Shown here in pieces: positions 7,524 through 28,024 of a DNA stretch of 44,994 nucleotides. The stretch lies in assembly GCA_021163005.1 (NCBI GenBank), contig JAGGXP010000042.1:1-44994 (forward strand), in the 5' to 3' direction. Position 1 is the stretch's first letter; each line of letters starts with the position of its first letter. The DNA is from Candidatus Aenigmatarchaeota archaeon (lineage in GTDB: Archaea; Aenigmatarchaeota; Aenigmatarchaeia; QMZP01; JAFGSV01). Both the position numbers and the translations under genes were made by a program. The notes beneath the pieces are model-generated. The model was not told where the DNA came from, searched no databases, and was given only the letters and a program-made list of their open reading frames with translations.

Positions 7524-8411
7524 ATGAGGGTAAGGCTGCTCAAAGGCAGGCAAAATGAACTTATAAAAAAAGCAAAAAATGGAAAAACATGGAAAGAATT
7601 GAGCATGGAACTCGGTCTAAATAGCGACTATTTGAGAACAGATATTTCTAAAGAAAAAGTTTTACTAAAACAAGAAACATTCAAGAAGCTTTGTTCCATG
7701 GCAAAAACGGACTTCTCAAAATTTGTGATTGAGATTCTGGATGATAACTGGGGGAAAAAGAAGGGTGGAAGGAATTCTCCAGGCAGAACAAAACATGTCA
7801 ATAAACCATCATTGTCAGAAGAACTTTCAGAATTGATTGGTATAATTCTAGGAGATGGAAGTCTTTATTGGAACAGCTCAAGAGGAGTTTATGCACTAAA
7901 GATCGCTGGAGATATTGAAAAAGAACAGGCATACCACGAAAAAATCGTAAAACCTATGATTGACAGACTTTTCGGTGTAACTTCAAAAATTGAAATTAAG
8001 AAAAATGAAAGATTCGTGTCTGAATTCAGCAAAGAGATAATAAAGATATTAGAGGATTTTGGTTTAAAGAGAGGTAACAAAAAACTGAACAATGTAGGAA
8101 TACCTTCTTGGGTAAAAGAAAATCCCAAATACTTAGCTTCATGTTTAAGAGGACTTATCGATACAGATGGTTCAGTTTTCAGGATGTCTAAGAAAGATCG
8201 CAATCTTGTCAGGATGTCCTTCAAGAATAAATCAGAAAAACTACTTACTGATACCCGTAATGCTTTCATTTACTTGGGGTTTAGCCCTTCAAAGATATTT
8301 GAAAAAGACCATTTTTTTATTTCAAAAAAGTCTGATATAAAAAAATACATCAGAGAGATAAATTTTAATAATCAGAAGCATCTAAGAAGAATAAGAGAAA
8401 CAGCCCCGTAG
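7524..8411 (+). CDS. LAGLIDADG homing endonuclease with N-terminal HTH-like region
   Basis: About 295 residues (297 from the ATG at 7518). The two LAGLIDADG helices are clear: LIGIILGDG (106-114 counted from 7518) and CLRGLIDTDG (209-218), each with the metal-binding acidic residue, so it is a single-chain double-motif enzyme expected to cut an 18-22 bp site. The first 75 residues contain KTWKELSMELGLNSDYLR, an HTH-like segment. The start at 7524 suits a TATA-like atttaagta about 25 nt upstream. The stop TAG (8409-8411) is made of tRNA-Gln bases 8-10, so the gene overlaps the tRNA by 10 nt and carries its promoter. It is much more AT-rich than thrS and dnaJ on either side, indicating recent arrival. 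It is not inside an intron, unlike most intron-encoded relatives. Confidence 0.88.
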   Translation: MRVRLLKGRQNELIKKAKNGKTWKELSMELGLNSDYLRTDISKEKVLLKQETFKKLCSMAKTDFSKFVIEILDDNWGKKKGGRNSPGRTKHVNKPSLSEELSELIGIILGDGSLYWNSSRGVYALKIAGDIEKEQAYHEKIVKPMIDRLFGVTSKIEIKKNERFVSEFSKEIIKILEDFGLKRGNKKLNNVGIPSWVKENPKYLASCLRGLIDTDGSVFRMSKKDRNLVRMSFKNKSEKLLTDTRNAFIYLGFSPSKIFEKDHFFISKKSDIKKYIREINFNNQKHLRRIRETAP

Positions 8412-8423
8412 TCTAGTGGTCAA

Positions 8424-8452
8424 ATTTCTCTATGTAAATGGAGAAAGACTAA
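8424..8452 (+). other. 29-nt noncanonical intron at the D-loop/D-stem border of tRNA-Gln (about 21/22)
   Basis: Exon GGTC (8418-8421) pairs with intron GACT (8447-8450) as the 4-bp central helix. The 3-nt bulges are AAA (8422-8424) and AAG (8451-8453), and the inner helix is TTTCTC/GAGAAA (8425-8430 with 8441-8446, allowing one offset base). Cutting after the second bulge base on each side gives GTGGTCAA joined to GGATAC, a normal D-arm. The same joined sequence occurs intact at 7479-7496. The outer helix is weak, as in many noncanonical introns. Confidence 0.85.
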
Positions 8453-8468
8453 GGATACTCGGCTCTGG

Positions 8469-8534
8469 TAACCTTTTGCGCATGCAGGCGCGCAAAACGT
8501 TAGCGAAAACACGCTGACGCATGAGGTTGGAGGA
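8469..8534 (+). other. 66-nt canonical intron at 37/38 of tRNA-Gln
   Basis: Exon CTCT (8463-8466) pairs with intron GGAG (8529-8532). The bulges are GGT (8467-8469) and GAA (8533-8535), the outer helix is the anticodon stem and the inner helix is AACC/GGTT (8470-8473 with 8525-8528). Inside is an 8-bp hairpin TTTTGCGC/GCGCAAAA. Bases 8470-8521 are homologous to part of the tRNA-Val intron. Confidence 0.9.
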
Positions 8535-8590
8535 ACCGGGGGACCCAGGTTCGAATCCTGGCGGGGCTATTGCCTATTTTTATCGAATTC

Positions 8591-20814: not shown

Positions 20815-21762
20815 TTATCTTTTCTTCTTGGTGTTCCACTGCCTCGGCAGCGGAAACAGTCTTTTCCTCTTTTCCGGGACAGCGGGAGGTTTTTCATATT
20901 TCAGTGACGGCTCCCTGAGCGACGTGTTCAGCGGCGGGTCTATGGCGCTCTCAAGCGCCTTCAGGGGCTTTGCGTTCCTGACAGCCTCCAGAGACCTCTC
21001 TTCCATTATCCTGCCGAGCGCACGCGCGTGCTTTCCTATGGAGCTTGCGTAGAAGGGATGTCCCGGGTTGTACCTGTACGTCGCCCTTATGGCGTCCCTG
21101 CTGAAGCCGTGGTCCGCGAGATATCTTCCGAGGAATCCTATGGCGTCAGGCTTGTTCATGGGGTCGAATACGCCGTCGCCGTCGAAGTCCTTCCCGTATT
21201 TTCTGAAGAGGTCGGGCATTATCTGGGCTATGCCGTATGCGCCCGCCCACGAACCTTTCGCCTCGAATATGTCATCAGGCAGGAGTATGTTGTCTGCGGT
21301 GTCCTTCTGAAGCTCGAGAAAGTCCTTTATGTATTCATAAAAATGCCTTCTGCGCCTCCCGCTGCTCTGCATATAGACGGAGATGAGGGAATTTATGACA
21401 GGCCGCTTTCCTGTGTACTGCCCCCTGTTGGTCTCCAGTTCCAGTACCGACGCGATGTGCTCGGGCGACGGGCCGAACTCGTCTTCCGCCTTCCTGAGCC
21501 AGTGCCAGTATTCCTCCATGAAGTCTGCGCACGACTCAAGCGAATCGCGCCTCATGTACCATGACTGCGAAGTGTCCGCGTAGTTGACGAACCTCTTCCT
21601 TTTTCCGAAGTCATAGACCTCGAACCTCGGATCCTCGAGAATTGACGTTATATCATATCCGTCGCGCGCCAGCCTGCGCTTCAGGTAGTCCAGCCTGCTT
21701 TTGTACTTTCCTGTTGCTCCTGAAACCGCGAGCGCGGCCGAGAGCAGAATCTCGCCTATCAT
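20815..21762 (-). CDS. Secreted MltB-like lytic transglycosylase
   Basis: 315 residues from MIGEILLSAALAVSG, a signal peptide; the start is about 27 nt after a CTTAAAT box. The catalytic Glu is E110 in VLELETNRG (ETxxG in MltB/Slt35). The later core GSWAGAYGIAQIMP and the EF-hand-like DFDGDG followed by PDAIGFLGRYLADHG match the GSxAGAxGxxQxMP...DFxGDG...DAIGxxxxYxxxHG pattern of E. coli Slt35/MltB almost residue for residue. The family cleaves peptidoglycan between MurNAc and GlcNAc. Archaea lack murein, so the target would be outside the cell, such as a bacterial wall, or a pseudomurein-like polymer. The C-terminal 60 residues are basic and Pro-rich. It has no visible operon partner for wall metabolism. 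Confidence 0.88.
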   Translation of the reverse strand: MIGEILLSAALAVSGATGKYKSRLDYLKRRLARDGYDITSILEDPRFEVYDFGKRKRFVNYADTSQSWYMRRDSLESCADFMEEYWHWLRKAEDEFGPSPEHIASVLELETNRGQYTGKRPVINSLISVYMQSSGRRRRHFYEYIKDFLELQKDTADNILLPDDIFEAKGSWAGAYGIAQIMPDLFRKYGKDFDGDGVFDPMNKPDAIGFLGRYLADHGFSRDAIRATYRYNPGHPFYASSIGKHARALGRIMEERSLEAVRNAKPLKALESAIDPPLNTSLREPSLKYEKPPAVPEKRKRLFPLPRQWNTKKKR

Positions 21763-21794
21763 GTTAAGAATAGCATGCAAAAAGATTTAAGGCA

Positions 21795-27155: not shown

Positions 27156-27380
27156 GGGCCTGTAGTCTAGCGGCTATGACGCCACCCTCACACGGTGGAG
27201 GTCCCCGGTTCGAATGCACCCTTTTCCGCATGTATACGTGGAAAAGCGCGCCCCGGAACCTTTTAGCGCATGCAAGCGCACTAAAACGTTCACGAAAAAT
27301 AAGCTGACGCAGGAAATGGCAAGCGCGTTCCGGAAAATAAGCTATCGTGCGCATAGGTGCCGTGAATCCGGGCGGGCCCA
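27156..27380 (+). tRNA. tRNA-Val(CAC) with a 152-nt T-loop intron
   Basis: Acceptor GGGCCTG (27156-27162) pairs with CGGGCCC (27373-27379) and A27380 is the discriminator; CCA is not encoded. The anticodon stem is CCACC/GGTGG with loop CTCACAC (CAC at 27189-27191), the variable loop is AGGTC, and the T-stem CCCGG (27204-27208) pairs with CCGGG (27368-27372). Spliced, the T-loop reads TTCGAAT. A TATA-like tttttaac lies about 28-32 nt upstream. Without the intron this is a normal tRNA-Val. Confidence 0.95.
27215..27366 (+). other. 152-nt noncanonical intron at 59/60 of tRNA-Val
   Basis: The T-stem is the outer helix. Exon TTCG (27209-27212) faces CGTG (27361-27364), a central helix with one T-T mismatch. 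Both bulges are AAT (27213-27215 and 27365-27367), and the inner helix is GCACC/GGTGC (27216-27220 with a partner at 27355-27360). Cutting after AA on both sides restores TTCGAAT. The interior has further stems (CTTTTCC/GGAAAAG, CCGGAAC/GTTCCGG, TTTTAG/CTAAAA) and the module shared with the tRNA-Gln intron (27257-27311). Confidence 0.88.
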
Positions 27381-27671
27381 CTGAACCCTTTTCAGTCCGA
27401 AACACGAAAAAGCGTTCACGGAAAAGACGGGTGCATACCTGCCCACCCTGTTAATGCAGCCCGGATGCTTCCTGGACGAGACACGCAGGCGCAGGTAAAA
27501 TGAATATGCAGAAACTAATTCATAGTAAACATAGCACAATCGCACTGTTCGAACAGGAACGCACACTGACGGCTAACGCAGGATGAACAAAGCCGTCCCT
27601 CCGTCCCTAAAAGGTATGGACAAATCCCCCAACATCACAGCTATAATGCAAATCTTCCTTTTTCCCTCAAG

Positions 27672-27768
27672 GCTTTTGGCGGAAGCGGAAGCATCGGGAA
27701 CAGGGTTCCCTTGCATCCACTCACGCGGAAGCATCGGGAACAGGGTTCCCTCGTTGTCCGCTGGCGCG
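27672..27768. repeat. 97-bp repeat block, copy 1 (two 27-bp hairpin units)
   Basis: Copy 1 of a block matching 27880-27976 at 95 of 97 positions. It holds two identical 27-bp units (27685-27711 and 27725-27751) at a 40-nt period, each with the stem GGGAAC-AGG-GTTCCC. A 40-nt period shifts the reading frame, so the repeat is not conserved as protein. Confidence 0.85.
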
Positions 27769-27879
27769 TAAAACTCCTGTAAAAGGCTTGTTTTCGTTAA
27801 GCTTTTGGCGGACGTTTCAACTCCCGTAAAATGGTTAATGACCAACATCCCGCGTAAACACCTTCATGTTTTTCGTTAA

Positions 27880-27976
27880 GCTTTTGGCGCAAGCGGAAGC
27901 ATCGGGAACAGGGTTCCCTTGCATCCACTCACGCGGAAGCATCGGGAACAGGGTTCCCTCGTTGTCCGCTGGTGCG
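27880..27976. repeat. 97-bp repeat block, copy 2
   Basis: Copy 2, offset 208 nt from copy 1, differing at two positions (g/c at 27890, c/t near 27973). Its units are 27893-27919 and 27933-27959. The flanks gttaagcttttggcg before and ggtgcgg after differ partly from copy 1, so the duplicated unit is close to the 97 bp quoted. Confidence 0.85.
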
Positions 27977-27989
27977 GAAGCTGCCGTAA

Positions 27990-28024
27990 AAAGGTTAAGC
28001 GTTCACGGAAAAACGAAAACCTTT
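27990..28024. terminator. Hairpin between the repeat island and the pilin-like gene
   Basis: AAAGGTT (27990-27996) pairs with AACCTTT (28018-28024) around a 21-nt loop containing gcgttcacggaaaa. It lies 5 nt beyond the stop of the minus-strand gene ending at 28029, so it may mark that transcript's 3' end, or be one more structured unit of the island. Confidence 0.35.

Follow-up and report, generated by a model that had tools for sequence, protein, structure and literature searches.

Two short modules, one in a tRNA-Gln gene and one in a tRNA-Val gene of a Candidatus Aenigmatarchaeota archaeon, are members of a large and apparently undescribed family of small non-coding archaeal hairpin elements, and the module is probably the core of a mobile, non-coding hairpin that is spliced as a BHB intron when it lies in a structured RNA gene. 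The window, that is the whole 44,994-nt stretch analysed (contig JAGGXP010000042.1), holds both modules, at 8470-8521 and 27257-27311. The first-pass annotation had described them as agreeing at about 45 of 55 positions; 46 of the 55 aligned columns are identical. When searched as a pattern, the module was found in 7 places in the window genome against none for a reversed-pattern control, and its 18-nt right half gave 46 matches against 1 for the same kind of control, which excludes chance as the source of the recurrence. A third copy of the core, beyond those two modules, lies in the window at 27382-27427, with dozens more elsewhere in the genome. The features of the two loci, all on the forward strand, are as follows.

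8402-8569 (+): tRNA-Gln (CTG) gene with two introns; 37.1 bits with the Rfam tRNA model, spliced form accepted by ARAGORN, orthologues in three congeners
8424-8452 (+): D-arm intron of tRNA-Gln, lacking the core, its ends ambiguous by 2 nt; ARAGORN excision, homologous intron in G002
8469-8534 (+): 66-nt core-bearing intron at 37/38 of tRNA-Gln; anticodon loop uninterrupted in G001 and G002, relaxed BHB in the fold
8468-8512 (+): core hairpin copy 1, TAAC-C-TTTTGCGC...GCGCAAAA-C-GTTA-GCGAAAA; R2 37.3 bits, E 9.7e-9
8499-8520 (+): second hairpin of the long subfamily, GTTAGCG-AAAACA-CGCTGAC; precursor fold, same segment in L010, L029 and L026
27156-27380 (+): tRNA-Val (CAC) gene; spliced form accepted by ARAGORN, orthologues in G002 and G003
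27215-27366 (+): 152-nt intron at 59/60 of tRNA-Val; ARAGORN excision, absent in G003 and shorter in G002, fold
27217-27258 (+): outer element, left part (GCACCCTTTTCCGC...GTGGAAAAGCGCGCCCCGGAA); partial R2 match at 27219-27248, E 1.6e-4, uninterrupted form in G002
27259-27335 (+): nested 77-nt insertion; absent from the orthologous G002 intron
27255-27301 (+): core hairpin copy 2, GAAC-C-TTTT...AAAA-C-GTTC-ACGAAAA; R2 44.8 bits, E 7.3e-11
27336-27366 (+): outer element, right part; comparison with G002
27382-27427 (+): core hairpin copy 3, directly 3' of tRNA-Val; R2 51.1 bits, E 1.3e-12

Both modules were correctly placed in introns by the first-pass annotation, since excision leaves a canonical tRNA-Gln (CTG), once its D-arm intron is taken out as well, and a canonical tRNA-Val (CAC). 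Several adjacent boundaries are acceptable to ARAGORN, and those given above were chosen because they agree with orthologues of the genus that are uninterrupted at these sites. The tRNA-Gln gene is the sole stretch of the window recognised by the Rfam tRNA model, and the whole window genome gives only 7 plain tRNA matches, as fits a genome with heavily interrupted tRNAs. Elsewhere in the window, 20815-21780 encodes a predicted lytic transglycosylase (SLT_2, E 7.8e-33), here in an archaeal genome.

The core was aligned across many copies and can be written N1N2-A-C-C-CUUUU-(variable stem-loop)-AAAAG-C-G-U-N2'-N1'-R-CGG-AAA, in which the first dinucleotide is variable and yet matched: Watson-Crick complementarity between N1N2 and N2'N1' holds for 159 of 167 distinct copies, compared with a mean of 28 and a maximum of 44 over 2000 permutations. 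In an alignment of 123 distinct copies, 93.4% of cells are paired. Double changes number 264, compared with 83 after shuffling and 0-24 after sliding of the partner. The covariation of the basal helix is not an artefact of fitting, because the model to which the copies were aligned did not contain these pairs. The paired changes noted earlier between the two modules hold up, and selection on structure is supported, although the clearest of these changes had been missed; it lies in the basal helix, which is TAAC/GTTA in tRNA-Gln and GAAC/GTTC in tRNA-Val. Within the stem, a C.C mismatch hardly varies (122 of 124 and 124 of 124). Copies with near-identical bodies carry different, still matching dinucleotides, and the match is retained in intergenic and antisense copies. 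Members of a long subfamily carry a further hairpin, CGTTAGCG...CGCTGACG, and this accounts for the 52-55 nt of the module as originally delimited. A conformational switch, in the form of a second complement to the 5' NNACC(C) near the 3' end of the intron, was not enriched, and inverted repeats in the flanks are not general, being only slightly commoner there than in swapped flanks.

A covariance model of the core built from 25 copies of the window genome (R1) found 57 copies at E<1e-3 in that same 0.95-Mb genome, and it matched 44 of 61 genomes (the window genome and 60 relatives) at E<=0.01. An improved model (R2) matched 74 of 156 genomes of the phylum at E<=1e-5. Two of the relatives coincide by shared 31-mers with public Aenigmatarchaeota records, G020 with QMZT01000002 and G043 with JACQNZ010000008, which makes it probable that the window genome is itself a MAG of this phylum. 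Further, an exact 24-position pattern, ACCCTTTTN{6,36}AAAAGCGTYNRCGGAAA, was searched for in about 85,000 prokaryote genomes, for which about 0.2 chance matches are estimated under uniform composition; at least 113 stretches were found, and all 80 of the 80 matches listed are archaeal. Their annotations include Aenigmatarchaeota, Micrarchaeota, Diapherotrites, Methanophagales/ANME-1, Syntrophoarchaeum, Altiarchaeota, Nanohaloarchaea, Woesearchaeota, Pacearchaeota and others, a host range that mis-binned MAG contigs may have inflated. Every one of the 26 genomes tested behind the exact-pattern loci carries between 1 and 42 copies. Carriage by viruses was considered and rejected, as viral contigs gave one match only. 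The first-pass annotation had held that the lack of further copies and of covariation would count against its reading; both were looked for and both are present. It knew of no named module of this kind, and Rfam 15 agrees: no family exceeded its gathering cut-off for the module, the matches being to the tRNA, rRNA and RNase P hosts only, and the best match to the module itself was a microRNA model at E 8.6.

In the window genome, copies of the core are found in the anticodon loops, T-loops and D-arms of many tRNAs, beside tRNA genes, at three sites in 16S rRNA and at three or more in 23S rRNA, and similar introns are seen at different positions of unrelated tRNAs. When copies were excised in silico, a tRNA spanning the junction was recovered for 45 of 158 in the sense orientation and for 4 of 158 in the antisense; at 294 control positions shifted by 700 bases the corresponding numbers were 0 and 1. 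The figure of 45 is a lower bound, because the recall of ARAGORN is limited on tRNAs with several introns. Many of the remaining copies appear to be intergenic. Only 29 of 116 copies lie in a long stop-free frame, compared with 84% of random positions in the same loci.

Several individual arrangements were also observed. The RNase P RNA genes of two archaea contain the core (L167, 6646-6963; L204, 3005-3298), in the sense orientation in one and apparently antisense in the other. A single tRNA-Arg intron (L157, 5212-5344) has two cores, one in each orientation, and this paired arrangement recurs in genome G077. At L004/L016 (G000 C3, around 21568-21735) two tandem 83-nt units precede an intact tRNA; each unit comprises a copy of the initial 15 nt of that tRNA, the core, and the reverse complement of the tRNA start. 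Similar arrangements are found at L190 and L029 and, at the 3' ends of tRNAs, at L151 and L222. An intergenic Methanophagales copy (L177, 5164-5309) lies between 16-bp inverted repeats, AACCACGAGATTACAC / GTGTAATCTTGTGGTT, and is MITE-like.

Both insertions in the window are polymorphic within the genus. At the tRNA-Gln locus the anticodon loop is uninterrupted in the congeners G001 and G002 (CTCTGGAACCG, CTCTGGACCGG), and in the congener G003 it is occupied by a different, core-free intron while a copy of the core is found in the D-arm. A further T-arm intron lacking the core, at about 53/54, is seen in the tRNA-Gln of G002 and G001 (L286, L288) and is absent in the window genome. The tRNA-Val locus exists in three states: intronless in G003, with the outer element alone in G002, and with both the outer element and the nested module in the window genome only. 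In the window genome the Val module is thereby nested within a second element of its own kind, a feature that went beyond the first-pass annotation. The nested 77 nt are flanked by an imperfect 13-nt direct repeat, GCGCG(CC/TT)CCGGAA, at 27246-27258 and 27323-27335, and another nested copy of the same core is found in a tRNA at C13 of the window genome. The gap that follows tRNA-Val holds, at 27654-27994, a direct repeat of 133 nt (86% identity) that contains GGAAGCATCGGGAACAGGGTTCCC units. At its ends it looks like a degenerate core (AACCTTTTTACGG ... CCAAAAGCTTAACGAAA), which R2 matches weakly.

Of the three core-bearing 16S sites, one is common to the window genome, G002 and, across families, G024 and G009. 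In G001 and in the recovered part of the G003 gene, no interruption was seen at any of the three. Within the genus the number of matches per genome runs from one weak match to more than 60. Spread, nesting and presence/absence polymorphism of the family are evident from these genome comparisons, and the proposal that introns had spread between tRNAs is strongly supported by the dozens of copies in tRNAs, rRNAs and intergenic DNA, by nesting with its corresponding empty site, and by the variation at genus level.

The modules are probably removed as BHB introns by the splicing machinery of the host. Removal restores a normal exon at both loci, where uninterrupted orthologues exist at the same sites, and the predicted folds of the Gln and Val precursors contain a relaxed BHB; that of the Val intron shows UUCG/UGAA and GCACC/GGUGC helices. 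In a strict search for an exon helix, a 4-bp helix and a 3-nt bulge, a 3' bulge of exactly 3 nt gave 30 strong matches against 9-11 for other sizes, and a 5' gap of 2 or 3 nt gave 34 and 30 against about 10; the strict geometry applies to about a third of copies at most. Two splicing endonucleases (PF01974) are encoded in the window genome, one a single unit of 188 aa and the other of 398 aa with several repeats (L045, 1234-1800 and L046, 871-2067; G000 C1 and C14). The gene for the 188-aa protein adjoins tRNA genes, and the 398-aa protein is reminiscent of the three-unit ARMAN type. Other intron classes were considered and rejected: the window introns, of 66 and 152 nt, have no Rfam catalytic core of group I or group II, and these lengths are too short for the open reading frame of a homing endonuclease.

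Copies of the hairpin have spread among tRNA, 16S and 23S rRNA genes, have become nested in each other and have reached intergenic DNA, and those in tRNA genes lie almost always in sense and at BHB-type junctions. Because the host endonuclease and a ligase would then remove the intron, an insertion should do little harm, and we infer that insertions are nearly neutral. The copies encode no protein and so mobility would have to come in trans. We tentatively favour movement of the self-pairing hairpin at the DNA level as the most likely route, a preference that falls somewhat short of even confidence, because some copies lie outside genes or in antisense. A Y1 (HUH) transposase (PF01797) was not found in the 91%-complete window genome and was rejected as the mover there. 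Among the loci fetched there was no longer, autonomous, gene-carrying version with the same ends; far pairs were 62-79 nt apart.

The inner dinucleotide may match the flank because it acts as a guide, because it was copied from a template, or because selection maintains the pair. A guide or a templated copy is favoured because near-identical bodies carry different matching dinucleotides and because the target is already matched in the one clear empty site; a simple guide is disfavoured because the dinucleotide of anticodon-loop copies appears to be intronic. The same observations bear on an RNA-level route, in which the excised intron would be reverse-spliced, reverse-transcribed and recombined, with the internal dinucleotide guiding it to the 5' flank. 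The sense bias in tRNAs, the guide-like match beside the insertion point and the dinucleotide present in that empty site are all consistent with such a route, but intergenic and antisense copies exist, and the apparently intronic dinucleotide of the anticodon-loop introns does not fit either; we consider it unlikely, though the strongest competitor to transfer at the DNA level. Alternatively, and as the first-pass annotation also allowed, the core could be a functional RNA, such as a small RNA or a protein-binding hairpin, carried by tRNA and rRNA introns with spread being secondary. The strong covariation and the sense bias in tRNAs would fit an RNA function just as well, and the near-invariance of the unpaired C.C and RCGGAAA across distant archaea is also in its favour. 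However, the range from one weak match to more than 60 within a genus, the tandem and nested copies in one genome and the polymorphism of individual insertions form the pattern of a spreading element and not of one needed RNA, and a functional RNA is accordingly an improbable explanation.

It is less probable still that the core is simply a part of the BHB intron needed by the splicing machinery, its similarity arising from or being kept by selection on splicing. Copies do abut splice sites and the BHB geometry is enriched, but core-free introns occur in the same genes (the D-arm of tRNA-Gln and the anticodon site of G003), the dinucleotide match is kept in intergenic and antisense copies, nested copies have a common body and, by inspection of the sequence, the basal helix of the T-loop introns includes exon bases and would compete with the BHB. 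Finally, gene conversion or recombination between tRNA genes could have copied an intron within the genome without any mobile family, as two related copies on one contig might suggest. The two copies nevertheless interrupt different tRNAs, each at its own position, and need no similarity between exons; the family also extends to the genes of rRNA and RNase P RNA and to many archaea. As a general explanation gene conversion is refuted by this breadth of host sites and taxa, and we regard it as very improbable altogether.

The elements resemble archaeal BHB introns of tRNA and rRNA genes in that their removal restores a normal tRNA and that the endonucleases are encoded, but here one flank-matched core is common to many lineages and is also found outside RNA genes. 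In Thermoproteales, very similar introns have been transposed between tRNAs by a mechanism given as unknown (PMC4090602, citing Fujishima 2010). As far as that account describes them, they are alike in that similar introns occupy different positions of different tRNAs, whereas the present copies are in other archaea and also in rRNA, RNase P RNA and intergenic DNA. Short (<50 nt) hairpin introns with a BHB are known from Thermoproteales 16S rRNA genes, where each locus was described on its own and movement together with adjacent homing-endonuclease introns was proposed (PMC4496867); here, in contrast, one core recurs in tRNA, 16S, 23S and elsewhere. Disruption of tRNAs linked to integration has been proposed for Caldiarchaeum (PMC3293823). 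Literature searches on ANME-1 tRNA introns found none, and those on Aenigmatarchaeota or DPANN introns returned nothing describing the core, the comparison with the Thermoproteales introns being one of descriptions only.

MITEs, REP sequences and Rickettsia palindromic elements are likewise small, non-coding, multicopy and self-complementary, but no partner transposase was found for the hairpin family, many of whose copies are intronic in RNA genes, and the inverted repeats or target duplications of MITEs are not general in it. Pairing between bases of an element and the flanks of its insertion occurs in group I and group II introns (IGS, EBS/IBS) and at the ends of IS200/IS605. The hairpins differ from these in that they lack a ribozyme core, that the window genome yielded no Y1 transposase, and that the variable match extends over 2 bp only. 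It is possible, though we hold it doubtful, that they represent a new class of minimal mobile element. Such an element would be a hairpin some 45 nt long and free of protein, its internal dinucleotide either directing it to the target bases in the flank or being copied from them, and it would persist in essential RNA genes across archaea through excision by the tRNA splicing machinery.

Archaeal tRNA introns were already known to move, mainly in one order and by an unknown mechanism. A single recognisable core in many lineages provides a handle on the origin and spread of introns, with orthologous empty sites at which ideas can be tested. The family would help to account for the failure of standard tRNA finders to detect the majority of tRNAs in genomes of this kind, and it matters for the annotation and for 16S-based surveys of these archaea.
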